The position numbers were made by a program, and so were the translations under genes. The notes beneath the pieces were generated by a model. It saw nothing but the letters and a program-made list of their open reading frames with translations. It made no database searches and was not told the origin of the DNA. From positions 1 to 47,169 of the forward strand of contig DUPU01000216.1 of the NCBI GenBank assembly GCA_012838175.1: a stretch of DNA of 47,169 nucleotides. Reading direction: 5' to 3'. Within the stretch, counting starts at the first letter, position 1, and each line of letters opens with the position of its first letter. Below, in pieces: positions 1,923-47,169 of this stretch. The DNA comes from Clostridia bacterium (GTDB lineage Bacteria; Bacillota; Dehalobacteriia; Dehalobacteriales; Dehalobacteriaceae).

Positions 1923-2846
1923 CTAAACTGATCCCGGTTTTTCCAAGGTGAATCTGCCCAGTTTTCCGCTGCGAAATTCACGGAGAAGCATTACCGCCGT
2001 TTGTTCCATCATAACTACTCCTCCGGAAGCAAGAAAACCTCTTTTTCTCCCGATCTCCTCCATTATCACCCAAGGATCGGAACTGACCAATTCAATTTTA
2101 TATCGCTCCTCCAATACTTCGGGCCGGTTTTCTTTAAGATAGAGTACCAAATGTTTTGCCACATCTTCCAATGAGAAAACCAGGTCACTGATGGCCCCGG
2201 TAGCAGCCAATTTAAATCCTGTTTGTTGATTCTCAAACTTAGGCCATAACATACCGGGCGTATCTAATAATTCCAAGTCATCCACTACCCGAATCCATTG
2301 GGTACCTTTGGTTACTCCCGGTTTATTTCCGGTTTTTGCAACTGTCCGATTAACCATGGCATTTATTAAAGTAGACTTTCCTACATTGGGTATGCCTACA
2401 ATCATGGCTCGCACTGCCCGTCTCCTTCTCCCCTTAGCTTCTAAAGCTTTCATTACAGGGCCTGCCGCTCCTTTTACCTCATTAATTAATTCTTTTATTC
2501 CTTGTTTTGAACTGCTGTCAACTGCCGCAGCGCCTAAACCTTGACTTTTAAAATAAGCAATCCACTTTAAGGTCATTTCATGGTGAGCCAGATCCCTCTT
2601 ATTCAATGCTATAACCCTGGGTTTCTCCCGCAAAATAGGTTCCAAAACCGGATTTCTGCTGCTTTGGGGAATCCTGGCGTCAACCACTTCTATGGTTACA
2701 TCTACTAAGGAAAATTTTTCTTTAATTTGCTTTTTTGCCTTGACCATGTGGCCCGGATACCACTGAATCGAAGTCAGATTTGACCTGTTGTTTAATTGAT
2801 TTATTGTGGATTTATCAGGCTTATTGTAATCTTCCATTAAGATCAC
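1923..2846 (-). CDS. rbgA: Ribosome biogenesis GTPase YlqF/RbgA (circularly permuted GTPase)
   Basis: IQWYPGHMVKAKKQI, NKRDL preceding GIPNVGKSTLIN and DTPGMLWPK; permuted G motif order. Confidence 0.95.
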   Translation of the reverse strand: MILMEDYNKPDKSTINQLNNRSNLTSIQWYPGHMVKAKKQIKEKFSLVDVTIEVVDARIPQSSRNPVLEPILREKPRVIALNKRDLAHHEMTLKWIAYFKSQGLGAAAVDSSSKQGIKELINEVKGAAGPVMKALEAKGRRRRAVRAMIVGIPNVGKSTLINAMVNRTVAKTGNKPGVTKGTQWIRVVDDLELLDTPGMLWPKFENQQTGFKLAATGAISDLVFSLEDVAKHLVLYLKENRPEVLEERYKIELVSSDPWVIMEEIGRKRGFLASGGVVMMEQTAVMLLREFRSGKLGRFTLEKPGSV

Positions 2847-2868
2847 CGTCGCTCCTATGACTTATTTC

Positions 2869-24425: not shown

Positions 24426-24474
24426 ATAAAAAAAATAAGCATGACAGAGAACAGCTTCCTGTCATGCTTTTTTC
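24426..24474. terminator. Bidirectional terminator downstream of the aminomutase
   Basis: AAAAAAAATAAGCATGACAGAGAACAGCTTCCTGTCATGCTTTTTTCC. Confidence 0.85.
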
Positions 24475-24477
24475 CCT

Positions 24478-25743
24478 TTACTCAGCTTCTGGTATCAGGG
24501 AAAACTCCATTTCTCGGTTTTCCCAATTTCGCAAGTGAATCCAATGACCATTGTGATTTTTTACATACCTGGGCAAGATGGGAACTTTCCCATAACCTCG
24601 GGGTGCATTAATAATATAGGTAGGAACGGCTAACCCGGAAGTATAACCCCGCAGCTTCTTCATGATATCCAGTCCCTCATCCACCGTAGTTATAAAATGC
24701 CTGGTACCTTTAACGGCTTTGGCATGAAAAATATAATAAGGTCTAACTCTTATTTTCAAAAGTTCGTGATTCATTTTTTTCATTACATGGGGGTCATTGT
24801 TAATACCTTTTAGCAGAACTGCCTGGTTGCCTAAAACAACACCGGCTTCTACCAGCATATCACAAGCCTTTTTGCTTTCAGGGCCTATCTCCCTGGGATG
24901 ATTAAATTGTGTATTAATATATAAAGGCCCGTGTTTTTTTAATATAGCACACAAGTTTGGGGTAATACGCTGGGGCAATGTCACCAATGTCCTGGTACCC
25001 AGTCGTTTAATCTCTACATGATCAATCTTATCCAATTCTGTCAACAGCCAGTCTATTTGCCTGTCACTTAATAACAAAGCATCTCCTCCGGTAATTAAAA
25101 CATCCCGAATCTCATGATTTTTTCGAATATAATCTAAAGCTGCCCGGAGGTTCGCTTCAGTCTGGTGTTTATCCACCTCACCGATATTCCGTCTTCTCTG
25201 ACAATGCCGGCAGTACATGCCACACTGGTTCGTGACATTAATAATCAAACGGTCAGGATATCTCCTGGTGATACACGGAGCCGGCGAAGTAAACTCCTCG
25301 GCCATCGGATCATCATAACCGGTTTCGTCTAACTCTTCAACGGAAGGCACTGACTGCCGCATAATGGGGTCACCGGAGGAATTTGGCTCGATTAAAGAAG
25401 CATAATACGGGGAAATAGCCCAGCGATATTTCTGTCCAACCTTTTCAATCCCGGCCAAATCCTTTTCAGGAAGCCCCAATATTTCAGACAGCACCGAAAC
25501 CCGGTTAATACGGTGCGACATCTGCCACCGCCAATTATTCCAATTTTCTTCTGTTCCTTTGAAATAGGCAAGAATCTTCTTCTTATTGCTTTTTATAATT
25601 TCATCCATTTCAAAGCCGGTTTTAATAGTATGTCTTATTTCCAGATAATCGCCTATCTTCCTTTTGAGTTCAGCAGCACGTTCCAACGCAATGGCCCTTT
25701 TATCATCTTCACTGAACCTTTGGGATTTAATTTCCATTACCAT
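24478..25743 (-). CDS. eam: Glutamate 2,3-aminomutase (KamA-family radical SAM/PLP enzyme)
   Basis: CGMYCRHCQRRR radical SAM motif, PLP-binding RGYGKVPILPRYV. Substrate-site positions read K (FHAKAVKG) and N (IINAPRG) where lysine 2,3-aminomutase has Asp. Start MVMEIKSQR at 25743 with GGAGGG; the ORF track start runs through the leader terminator. Confidence 0.85.
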   Translation of the reverse strand: MVMEIKSQRFSEDDKRAIALERAAELKRKIGDYLEIRHTIKTGFEMDEIIKSNKKKILAYFKGTEENWNNWRWQMSHRINRVSVLSEILGLPEKDLAGIEKVGQKYRWAISPYYASLIEPNSSGDPIMRQSVPSVEELDETGYDDPMAEEFTSPAPCITRRYPDRLIINVTNQCGMYCRHCQRRRNIGEVDKHQTEANLRAALDYIRKNHEIRDVLITGGDALLLSDRQIDWLLTELDKIDHVEIKRLGTRTLVTLPQRITPNLCAILKKHGPLYINTQFNHPREIGPESKKACDMLVEAGVVLGNQAVLLKGINNDPHVMKKMNHELLKIRVRPYYIFHAKAVKGTRHFITTVDEGLDIMKKLRGYTSGLAVPTYIINAPRGYGKVPILPRYVKNHNGHWIHLRNWENREMEFSLIPEAE

Positions 25744-25767
25744 ATAATTCCCTCCTTTTCTCTGTTC

Positions 25768-25804
25768 TAAAAAAATAAATGCTCCGGTTAACTTATTCCG
25801 GAGC
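25768..25804 (-). terminator. Intrinsic terminator of the c-di-AMP riboswitch expression platform
   Basis: Minus strand GCTCCGGAATAAGTTAACCGGAGCATTTATTTTTTT. Confidence 0.88.
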
Positions 25805-25842
25805 AAAAAGGTATGACTAATTAAAGCACACAATATGCTTTA

Positions 25843-25970
25843 AGCCCTCCCTTTCCACGCTTGCGAAGTTAGCTGACGGATTCGGGTCGAAAGTGTAACC
25901 CTACCTCATAATGAGGATTCACCCCGGAATTGGTTCCCCCGCTTCTTTTAAAAGAATTCAGCGATCAAGG
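25843..25970 (-). ncRNA. ydaO-yuaA (c-di-AMP) riboswitch
   Basis: Minus strand GATCGCTGAATTC...GCGGGGGAACCAATTCCGGGGTGAATCC...GGTAGGGTTACACTTTCGACCCGAATCCGTCAGCTAACTTCGCAAGCGTGGAAAGGGAGGG, matching the conserved GGGGGAACC, GGGGUGAAUC, CCGUCAGCUAAC segments. Confidence 0.92.
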
Positions 25971-26060
25971 ATAATATTATATTAGATCACCAAAAAATTT
26001 ACTACCTTTGTTATTATATCATAAATAGTAAGGACAATTCAATGAATATGCGTAAATTTT

Positions 26061-38040: not shown

Positions 38041-38091
38041 CACCTAATAACAGTTAAGCCTTACCAGTCTCCTTTGGTTCACGGCTTTCTT

Positions 38092-38252
38092 AAAGGCAGG
38101 TCTTCTGGCTCTCGTGTCATCCTCCTCCCACGTCTTCCCATCCAATATCTCGGACAGTGACATATCGGGGATTTGTCACCGATTACAGCGGCGGATCCGC
38201 ACCGGCATGGTACCGGTTTCCCTATTCTCCTTCTAAAGGCACCTTAAAGACA
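38092..38252 (-). ncRNA. Cobalamin riboswitch 1 (proximal to cbiM)
   Basis: Minus strand GGTGCC...GGGAAACCGGT...GCCGCTGTAATCGGTGACAA...CACTGTCC...GGGAAGACGTGGGAGGAGGATGACACGAGAGCCAGAAGACCTGCC. Confidence 0.93.
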
Positions 38253-38355
38253 TATATTCAATTGTAACCAAGAAAATATATTTTCATGGATTTTTTAAAA
38301 AATTTCAACCCGGCCCGATTTCAGACCGGGCAAAACAAAGGAGTTGTTATGGCTA

Positions 38356-38393
38356 GAAATTAAAACCTCATTTCCCTTAAGAAAATGAGGTTA
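38356..38393 (-). terminator. Terminator of distal cobalamin riboswitch
   Basis: Minus strand AACCTCATTTTCTTAAGGGAAATGAGGTTTTAATTTCT. Confidence 0.8.
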
Positions 38394-38451
38394 AACAACC
38401 ATCCAATCTAAGCCCCCCTTTTCCAGCGAAAGGTTAAAAATGCTTCATATT

Positions 38452-38612
38452 TAGGCAGGTTTCCTGACTCACAATCATCACTCCGCCTTACCTTCCCAGG
38501 AATTTTACCCAGTGGTTTAAAAAGCGAAGCTCCTTGTTTACAGTGGCGCGACCGTCCAGGACTTATACCTGGTTCCCTTTTACCCGTTGACCTTAAATCA
38601 ACAGCACCTAAA
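38452..38612 (-). ncRNA. Cobalamin riboswitch 2 (distal)
   Basis: Minus strand TAGGTGCTG...AAAGGGAACCAGGTATAAGTCCTGGACGGTCGCGCCACTGTAAACAAGG...CCACTGGG...GGGAAGGTAAGGCGGAGTGATGATTGTGAGTCAGGAAACCTGCC. Confidence 0.93.
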
Positions 38613-38800
38613 TACACAATCTATTAAATTTTCCCTATTAAAATGTTAACACAATCTGGTTAAAAATACAATACACAAATTTTGCGCTATGTTGTCAACT
38701 TTTTGTTCAACTTTATAAAGGATCATAAAGGATCTTTTAAATAGGATTTTACTTTTCGGATAATGGGGACTCTGCCTCAATGATAACCTTTCATTTTTGT

Positions 38801-43566: not shown

Positions 43567-46488
43567 TTAGAAGAATCTCTCAGCATCTGCATCTCCCAAA
43601 GGAATAAAGAAGTCGTTACCCCCATATTTTACCGGATTTGCTTTAATCTCTTCCAGTTCATCGTAAAGATCAGATCCAAGGAAATATTTTTTCGGAGGCT
43701 CAATCTTGCCTCCGGAGGCGAGAATATCTAATCCAGCCTTCACCTTTTCTGGTGTCGCGGGCATCTCAAAGATACGTACTCCACAAGCATTATAAATAGC
43801 ATTTAAGACAGCAACATGCCCTGCAGACTGGAAAGCCTCGGAAGCACCGGAGGAACCAAAAGGTCCAATTTCATCCGGTCTTTCGTAATGAATTACATTT
43901 ATATCATCAGGTATATCCTGAATATACGGCACACCGGCACCTAGCATATTGGCATGCTTTTTCACATCATCATAATTCTCACTGAGGGCAAAGCCAATAC
44001 TATGAGAGATACCGCCATAAGCCTGCCCGTTAACGGCATCGATGTTACCGATCTTACCTACACAATCCACACAGGTGAAACGAAGTACTCTTGTTTTACC
44101 GGTAGTAGTGTCTACTTCTACCTCCGCTAAATTAAGACAATAGGTATAGGCGGGAGTAGGATCTCCAATACCGGTATTGGGGTCCAAACGGCAAAGTCCG
44201 GGAATAGTGACATTCTGGAAAGTACCATAATATTTTGTAGGAATGCCTTCAGCCACCATCTCTTCATAGGTACGGAAGGTACCGTCCGGTTTGCGCATGG
44301 CATTAATCAATTTCTCAGCAGCAATTATGGTAGCTTTACCACTCATAAAGTGAGTACGGCTGGCCCCTGACATACCACTATCCGGACAAAGCTTAGTATC
44401 ATTCTGCACCAGCCTGATCTTATCAGGAGTAACACCCAATGGTTTAAGGGCTTCCAGTGTTAACATCAGGGAACCGATATCTCCTCCCTGCCCTAGTTCT
44501 TGATAAGTGTCATATTTAATAAAGGTATTTTCCGGGGTTAGTTCAATTGCTACAGAGGAACTGTCCGTTCCGCCTTCCGTAACATTAAAACCACCCCAGG
44601 ACAAACCGACACCGCGGCGTTTCTCGGGAGTATCGGCAGCCTTCGCTTCTTTCACCGCTCTTTCGTAATATGGTTTCATGATCTTCATTATTTCCTCCAT
44701 GGGGTACTGGCGGAAAGGATAGCTGTTGATATTGGTATCTCCGGGGCGGGCAATGTTTCTCCAACGGAATTCAAAAGGATCAATTCCTGCTTTTTCTGCT
44801 AACATGTCTATCAAAGCTTCAGATAAAGTATACGCCTGAGGAGAACCATAGCTGCGGTAAGCGGTCCCAAAATTATGATTGGTATTGGCAACCCGGACTA
44901 ACCCTGCCACATTTGGCACATAATAAGGAAAGAAAGCAAATCGAGCCGGTTTAGTCATAACATCATCCCCACCCCAGGAATAAGCTCCATGATCCAAACC
45001 AAAATCAAATTCAACAGCAGTAATTTTCCCGTTTTCATCACAAGCTGCCTTACCGTTAGAATAACTGGGCATGCGTTTTCCGGAAAAATGCTGATGCTCC
45101 TCATAGGTCATAGAGAGGGCAACAGGCATCTTGGTTACCACAGCGGCAGCTGCCGCCAAACAAATGTCTCCGGCATTGGTTGACCAACCAAAGCTGGCCC
45201 CGGTAGGATTCATCACAATGCGTATTTTATCCTTGGGTACACCCACTGAATTGCCGATACGGCCGATAGACGAATAAACCCCCTGAGACTTGCATTGGAT
45301 TGTTAAATAATCATCCTCATCAAAATAAGCCTGCACAGTAGTACCCTCAATGGATAAATGAGGCTGCCGGGTAGAATGGAAGCTCCCCTCAACGCTGTAA
45401 GCCGAATTGTCTATTATTTCTTTCACCTTGGAAGGCTCTTCCAAACCTGCACCCTTTAAAACCGGCTGCATGGAGAAAATATTAGGTGTATCTTCATGAA
45501 CTCGGATAGCATCCGGCGTTACTGCATCCAAATAATTCAAATATTCAGGAAGCCGCTCAATTTCCACTTTAACTTTATCTGCAGCAGCACGGGCATGATC
45601 CTTTGTATCTGCAACAGCCAGGGCCACAACATCACCATAACGATATATTTTATCCTCGCACAATACCTTGCGGCTCGGCACCATTACCGTTGTGCGTTCA
45701 TGGAAATGAGCTTCTGCCATTACATTGGAGCCCCCCGCTTCCTTTAGTTCCTTGTGAGTAATAATTTTCACTACTCCAGGCATCTTTTCCGCTTCCGAGG
45801 TATCTATCTTTAAGATTTTGGCATGATGGGCAATTTTGGGCTGAACTATCGCTACATGAAGTGTCTCGGGAGGCATCTTCAGTGCCTGATCATCTCCATA
45901 GTCGGCCAGTCCGCACACCTTCGCCAGAGCTGTGGGTCGCACCAGGGGCTTACCGTAATACTCTTTGTCCTCAGGAAGCTTGAAAGTAATATCTTCAATA
46001 GTTGCCTCACCGCGTACAACCTTAGCCGCTGCCATTACGGCATCAACAATTTGCTTATAACCGGTGCAGCGACATACGTTCCGATGTTTCTGGAACCAAG
46101 CACGCACTTCTTCCCGAGTAGGATTATTGTTTTCCAAGAGTAGAGCATAAGCAGAGACGATAAAACCGGGAGAGCAGAAACCGCACTGTACAGCACCACA
46201 ATTCATGAATGCCACTTGCAAGGGGTGTAAGTTAGCAGGAGTGCCGATACCTTCAATTGTGATAACTTTACTATACTCCTCCACTGTCCTAATCTTTTTG
46301 GTACATGAGCGGATAACTTTGCCGTTAAGAATCACTGAACATGCTCCGCAAACACCTGTTCCACAGCCAATTTTAGTCCCTGTAAGACCCATGCGGCGTA
46401 ATACATCAGCCAGAGAATCTTTTTCCGGGTTACAGGCAAACATACGATTCGCTCCGTTAATATTCAACCACATTTTTCTTAGCTTCAT
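43567..46488 (-). CDS. mop: Molybdopterin-dependent aldehyde oxidoreductase (xanthine oxidase family, Desulfovibrio Mop-like)
   Basis: N-terminal [2Fe-2S] motifs (CGTGVCGACSVILNGKVIRSC; CGFCSPG...CRCTGY); MCD-site and catalytic regions NPTGASFGW, AYRSYGSPQ, GPFGSSGASEAFQSAGHVAVLNAI. Confidence 0.92.
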   Translation of the reverse strand: MKLRKMWLNINGANRMFACNPEKDSLADVLRRMGLTGTKIGCGTGVCGACSVILNGKVIRSCTKKIRTVEEYSKVITIEGIGTPANLHPLQVAFMNCGAVQCGFCSPGFIVSAYALLLENNNPTREEVRAWFQKHRNVCRCTGYKQIVDAVMAAAKVVRGEATIEDITFKLPEDKEYYGKPLVRPTALAKVCGLADYGDDQALKMPPETLHVAIVQPKIAHHAKILKIDTSEAEKMPGVVKIITHKELKEAGGSNVMAEAHFHERTTVMVPSRKVLCEDKIYRYGDVVALAVADTKDHARAAADKVKVEIERLPEYLNYLDAVTPDAIRVHEDTPNIFSMQPVLKGAGLEEPSKVKEIIDNSAYSVEGSFHSTRQPHLSIEGTTVQAYFDEDDYLTIQCKSQGVYSSIGRIGNSVGVPKDKIRIVMNPTGASFGWSTNAGDICLAAAAAVVTKMPVALSMTYEEHQHFSGKRMPSYSNGKAACDENGKITAVEFDFGLDHGAYSWGGDDVMTKPARFAFFPYYVPNVAGLVRVANTNHNFGTAYRSYGSPQAYTLSEALIDMLAEKAGIDPFEFRWRNIARPGDTNINSYPFRQYPMEEIMKIMKPYYERAVKEAKAADTPEKRRGVGLSWGGFNVTEGGTDSSSVAIELTPENTFIKYDTYQELGQGGDIGSLMLTLEALKPLGVTPDKIRLVQNDTKLCPDSGMSGASRTHFMSGKATIIAAEKLINAMRKPDGTFRTYEEMVAEGIPTKYYGTFQNVTIPGLCRLDPNTGIGDPTPAYTYCLNLAEVEVDTTTGKTRVLRFTCVDCVGKIGNIDAVNGQAYGGISHSIGFALSENYDDVKKHANMLGAGVPYIQDIPDDINVIHYERPDEIGPFGSSGASEAFQSAGHVAVLNAIYNACGVRIFEMPATPEKVKAGLDILASGGKIEPPKKYFLGSDLYDELEEIKANPVKYGGNDFFIPLGDADAERFF

Positions 46489-46764: not shown

Positions 46765-47169
46765 AAAAGCTGCTTTACAGTACAAAACATAGTTTAAGCA
46801 TCTTTTACTTTGTTTCCTTTCCAAAAGGGAGGCATAAATGTTTCCACTTATACCCTATCGGTTAATCGCCATGGTACTAACTTTAGGCATAATTAACTCG
46901 GAAACTTATAGAATATAAAGATATCATTATTTTAAAGATTTTTCTTAATATGATTGATCAATATTAAGTTTTAATTTTTCAAAAAATATTACACATTTTT
47001 TAATAGTTGCAAAAATCATGCCAATTAACTTTTATATTATTTACTCAACTTTCCCACTTACAATGTGGGCTTGATCTTTGAAAAATTCATATAGAAACGC
47101 ACATTAAAACAACAGAAAACCCCCTTGGAATGGTATAATTGAATTGACCAAAACCCAACAATACCAGCC

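Follow-up and report, generated by a model that had tools for sequence, protein, structure and literature searches.

A predicted c-di-AMP OFF riboswitch ahead of a glutamate 2,3-aminomutase gene in a member of the Dehalobacteriaceae

Can the second messenger c-di-AMP act directly on the synthesis of an osmolyte, through the leader of a biosynthetic gene? The question is raised by a locus in a 47,169-nucleotide stretch of DNA from a Clostridia bacterium (hereafter, the window), in which an initial annotation, made from the letters alone, had placed a ydaO/yuaA riboswitch on the minus strand in front of an aminomutase gene (24478-25970). In our preferred reading, to which we give a probability of about 0.8, the leader of this gene, eam, is a c-di-AMP riboswitch that terminates transcription and switches off beta-glutamate synthesis when c-di-AMP is high, i.e. 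when K+ and turgor are sufficient.

The eam leader and its aptamer

The covariance model of the c-di-AMP riboswitch family (RF00379) matches the leader end to end, from position 1 to 134 of 134 (Table 1), with 107.8 bits against a gathering score of 38 bits, an E value of 7e-25 and just two non-standard pairs over the whole model. A chance match at this level is not credible, and the ydaO core reported in the initial annotation is thus confirmed; the aptamer starts 3 nt upstream of the interval given there, which is otherwise almost exact. No second RF00379 match was found in the 2.4-Mb, 96%-complete genome, the eam leader being the only copy found. A genome search returned one diadenylate cyclase (DAC) domain and also a PgpH-type c-di-AMP phosphodiesterase domain, which points to a host cell that very likely makes and degrades the ligand. 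The aptamer is also placed as expected for its family, in the 5' leader of a putative osmotic-type gene of an organism with both domains, and by analogy with this known family the eam leader would bind c-di-AMP. The Na+-I riboswitch (RF03071) gave no match in the leader, the 47-kb window or the genome, so that the leader carries a c-di-AMP aptamer and not a tandem Na+/c-di-AMP gate.

Downstream of the aptamer, the leader continues with an intrinsic terminator and with a GGAGGG motif 6 nt 5' of the ATG at 25743, both as initially described. A further terminator-like hairpin follows eam itself, which suggests that the gene is transcribed on its own; the unit lies between smc and a metallo-beta-lactamase-fold gene on one side and ftsY on the other.

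Table 1. Features of the eam unit in the window, with the tandem-gated putative osmolyte genes of a sister genome (G002).
Feature	Position	Strand	Basis
Probable sigma-70-type promoter, TTGAAT-18-TATAAT, TG before -10	26013..26042	-	Consensus scan, best-placed site, pattern match only
c-di-AMP (ydaO/yuaA) riboswitch aptamer, RF00379	25842..25973	-	cmscan 107.8 bits, full model 1-134
Predicted antiterminator 5' side ATTCCGGGGTGAA, overlapping conserved aptamer core GGGGUGAAU	25918..25930	-	Pairing calculation
Predicted antiterminator 3' side TTTGCTCCGGAAT, including terminator 5' arm	25795..25807	-	Pairing calculation
Intrinsic terminator GCTCCGG-loop-CCGGAGC, then ATTTATTTTTTT	25769..25804	-	Sequence and folding
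Ribosome-binding site AAGGAGGG	25750..25757	-	Sequence; 6 nt to start codon
eam, predicted glutamate 2,3-aminomutase (radical SAM, PLP), 421 aa	24478..25743	-	TIGR04368 702 bits
Terminator 3' of eam, AAGCATGACAG...CTGTCATGCTT, T-tract	24428..24469	-	Sequence
Tandem Na+/c-di-AMP riboswitch and putative sucrose-type osmolyte genes, G002	L053:1347-3080 and L196:61-810

Elsewhere in the window, we observed two cobalamin riboswitches in tandem (38078-38626, minus strand), which score 120.1 and 115.5 bits and are separated by about 175 nt, and a molybdenum/tungsten cofactor riboswitch (46798-46915, minus strand; 77.3 bits) that precedes a 973-aa ORF (43567-46488).

Spread of the arrangement and the osmolyte reading

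The survey covered 399 genomes of the phylum, in which we looked for both eam and RF00379; the eam-bearing genomes were then searched again, such that nearly all of their riboswitches are listed. In 78 of the 145 genomes with a listed eam, RF00379 lies on the same strand, 48-411 nt 5' of the eam match, and these 78 span 22 families according to the family labels of the search tables; note that the sampled genomes are kin and that the 78 cases do not amount to 78 independent events. All but one of these riboswitches (77/78) score above the gathering threshold in a scan of the leader alone. On a rough estimate, if the few riboswitches of each genome were placed at random, well under one case of this kind would be expected. 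About half of the sampled eam genomes have no riboswitch upstream of the gene, which counts against the preferred reading. In a relative from the same family that has the unit (G001), the neighbouring genes are unlike those in the window, indicating that leader and gene stay together independently of their surroundings. Overall, the riboswitch-eam arrangement is real and widespread, and its distribution is evidence for eam as a major c-di-AMP riboswitch target.

A Na+ riboswitch lies ahead of the c-di-AMP riboswitch in one of the 78 leaders, as well as at two further named loci. In one of these two, from Firmicutes bacterium HGW-Firmicutes-8 (L002:2573-5554), a Na+ riboswitch, a c-di-AMP riboswitch, eam and an overlapping lysine-type aminomutase gene follow one another, apparently bringing both predicted beta-amino-acid enzymes into one unit behind a tandem gate. 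A contig of Pelotomaculum sp. UBA3103 carries c-di-AMP riboswitches at L005:327-563 (minus strand) and 2629-2866 (plus strand), one of them belonging to eam and the other lying in opposite orientation at a distance of about 2 kb.

What beta-glutamate would be for is the point on which the most serious alternative turns. The riboswitch could be real and control eam while beta-glutamate serves redox, light or temperature stress, or is the precursor of a modified product, in which case the logic would be that of general stress or envelope metabolism, not turgor. Other c-di-AMP riboswitches govern cell-wall enzymes (PMC3766115; PMC9960051), and in Moorella eam is among the genes most induced by blue light (PMC7835215). 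However, the Na+ riboswitches found in tandem ahead of eam in relatives point to salt and osmolytes, and so does the third same-family genome, G002, where the same tandem precedes an operon for a sucrose-phosphate phosphatase. We therefore regard this alternative as improbable, although it is the best placed of those considered.

G002 has no eam match at E 1e-150 and two c-di-AMP riboswitches. The first of them forms the tandem with a Na+ riboswitch, ahead of a GT4 glycosyltransferase and a sucrose-6-phosphate phosphatase (PF05116, 214 bits), which suggests that the tandem-gated operon makes a sucrose-type compatible solute; the second lies ahead of a TrkA/KtrA-like K+ regulator. The presence of these riboswitches at putative sucrose-type osmolyte genes and at a K+ regulator favours the view that control of eam is control over an osmolyte. 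Beta-glutamate itself is a documented compatible solute; as points against the preferred reading, it is known chiefly from methanogens and has been detected in few bacteria, and labelling in methanogens excluded an aminomutase route to it (PMC1224877).

The enzyme and the switch

The initial annotation had predicted a beta-glutamate-forming enzyme, and the protein models agree: the gene product scores 702.3 bits with TIGR04368 (glutamate 2,3-aminomutase; cut-off 650) and 447.9 bits with TIGR03820 (lysine 2,3-aminomutase, AblA), below the cut-off of 525.4. In an alignment with PDB 2a5h, Lys342 and Asn379 stand where lysine 2,3-aminomutase has Asp293 and Asp330. In 2007, Ruzicka and Frey reportedly assigned to these two positions the choice of substrate that separates the lysine from the glutamate enzyme. 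The K/N pair is present in 44 of the 46 aminomutase sequences examined, the exceptions being a lysine-type paralogue (L051) and the second, lysine-type gene of locus L002, whose eam itself has K/N. The CxxxCxxC motif at 174-181 (C174, C178 and C181) and the PLP lysine, Lys386, are invariant in all 46.

That the enzyme is instead AblA, with beta-lysine or N-acetyl-beta-lysine as its product, as annotated in a published Dehalobacter case, would be in keeping with the shared superfamily and with the strong match to PDB 2a5h, an L-lysine 2,3-aminomutase. We nevertheless rejected this identity on the TIGR03820 score and on the replacement of both specificity Asp residues; moreover, the acetyltransferase gene that would accompany it (ablB) is absent 3' of eam, where a terminator stands instead, and the AblA reading is very unlikely. 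The gene product is predicted to be a beta-glutamate-forming EAM, not a lysine aminomutase, while the conversion of glutamate to beta-glutamate and its osmotic role would follow by analogy with known families. A separate contig of the same genome (C126; L046:1348-1842, minus strand) encodes a C-terminal fragment, 164 aa long, of a lysine 2,3-aminomutase (TIGR03820, 222 bits) that keeps the lysine-type Asp residues, i.e. a truncated second aminomutase gene.

We then turn to the direction of the switch. The terminator arms, GCTCCGG at 25804-25798 and CCGGAGC at 25787-25781, are followed by a T-rich tract, and a folding energy of -13.3 kcal/mol was calculated for the hairpin plus its flanking pair. 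Note that a simple terminator scanner skipped it, its loop limit being 8 and the real loop 10; inspection of the sequence and folding confirmed the terminator. A competing duplex of 13 contiguous pairs joins the two antiterminator strands of Table 1, the 5' strand including the most conserved stretch of the aptamer, GGGGUGAA, and the 3' strand the 5' arm and loop of the terminator. Its energy, -18.1 kcal/mol, was reached by none of 1500 arm shuffles and by 9 of 1500 random 15-mers from the window. Left unconstrained, the leader adopts the antiterminated fold (-60.1), and enforcing the terminator gives -58.1; these energies are for the ligand-free secondary structure and ignore the tertiary structure of the aptamer.

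The terminator arm also pairs with the same core segment in two relatives of the same family (G001 and G003). In a permutation test pooled over 54 leaders, the native antiterminator pairing is modestly favoured (z -2.4, with 45 of 5000 permutations as good), the effect being modest in part because the leaders of the relatives vary in architecture and pairings. The expression platform of the eam leader thus comprises a terminator and a mutually exclusive antiterminator that overlaps the aptamer core, as in OFF-type switches. Since the 13-bp antiterminator uses both the aptamer core and the terminator 5' arm, the simplest mechanism is predicted to be a transcriptional OFF switch, in line with the initial expectation that the gene is off when c-di-AMP is high; in vivo, this direction would be that of the known families. 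That the leader is a relic, degenerate or unable to switch, or else works as an ON switch or at the level of translation, is scarcely probable with an aptamer that is intact over the whole model and a terminator that faces an exactly competing antiterminator, even if a simple search detected a terminator between aptamer and gene in only 60 of the 78 related leaders, such that the other 18 may point to other mechanisms in the group.

In the transcriptional OFF switch that we favour, the core GGGGUGAA would pair, without ligand, over 13 bp with the terminator 5' arm, allowing read-through and production of EAM. The enzyme would turn L-glutamate into beta-glutamate, which would serve as a counter-ion for K+ and as a static compatible solute. 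At high c-di-AMP levels, the bound aptamer would retain its core, leaving the GCTCCGG hairpin free to form and to stop transcription before eam. Upon hyperosmotic stress, c-di-AMP would drop and beta-glutamate synthesis resume.

Known systems and the place of eam among c-di-AMP targets

The closest described system is the tandem Na+/c-di-AMP riboswitch of the Dehalobacter lysine-2,3-aminomutase gene tested by White et al in 2022, in which c-di-AMP induces termination in vitro, with read-through under 5%, and the aptamer core hinders the terminator solely in the absence of c-di-AMP, an arrangement explained as sparing osmolyte synthesis (PMC9337991). In both leaders, a c-di-AMP riboswitch and its intrinsic terminator precede an aminomutase gene of the KamA type; they also share a core described there, and predicted here, to block the left arm of the terminator without ligand, an OFF response to c-di-AMP (predicted in the present case) and the osmolyte rationale. 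They differ in that Dehalobacter CF has the tandem whereas a single riboswitch stands here, with no Na+ riboswitch in leader or genome, and in that the published gene is annotated ablA (beta-lysine) and the present one is predicted to be eam (beta-glutamate). The same work names eam among the osmoprotectant genes under Na+ riboswitches (PMC9337991); riboswitch control of eam is therefore common to both settings, but Na+, through the Na+-I (DUF1646) riboswitches, turns eam on, whereas c-di-AMP is predicted here to turn it off.

Further comparisons are more distant. The ydaO/kimA and yuaA/ktrA riboswitches of Bacillus subtilis belong to the same aptamer family, and there too c-di-AMP limits osmotic capacity, but their targets are K+ importers and not a solute-synthesis enzyme. 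The salt-regulated ablA-ablB genes of methanogens likewise include one for a radical SAM aminomutase whose product is a beta-amino-acid osmolyte; unlike for eam, the substrate is lysine, an acetyltransferase is the partner and no riboswitch has been described.

The initial annotation had presented the locus as a direct switch from c-di-AMP to osmolyte synthesis. The conservation of the aptamer-eam unit over 22 families argues for such a switch, but the novelty that was implied does not hold: the principle is already published for one aminomutase leader (PMC9337991), and the present case mainly extends and generalises it. For ydaO, the passages located in a regulon survey name just transporters and cell-wall enzymes (PMC3766115). 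What is added to the published work is the single-input c-di-AMP riboswitch on eam and the frequency of this arrangement. Lists of ydaO targets are said to be given by Nelson in 2013 and Block in 2010, and these may already include eam.

The locus links the essential messenger c-di-AMP to osmolyte synthesis, and not solely to the transport of K+ and solutes. We would give even odds to the broader proposition that eam is among the main and evolutionarily oldest c-di-AMP riboswitch targets in anaerobic Bacillota, and that beta-glutamate is in these bacteria a widespread, largely undocumented turgor solute, whose level depends on an OFF switch with c-di-AMP as its single input; osmolyte synthesis, and not transport alone, would then be under direct control. 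The prediction is that many anaerobic Bacillota would accumulate beta-glutamate under salt stress.
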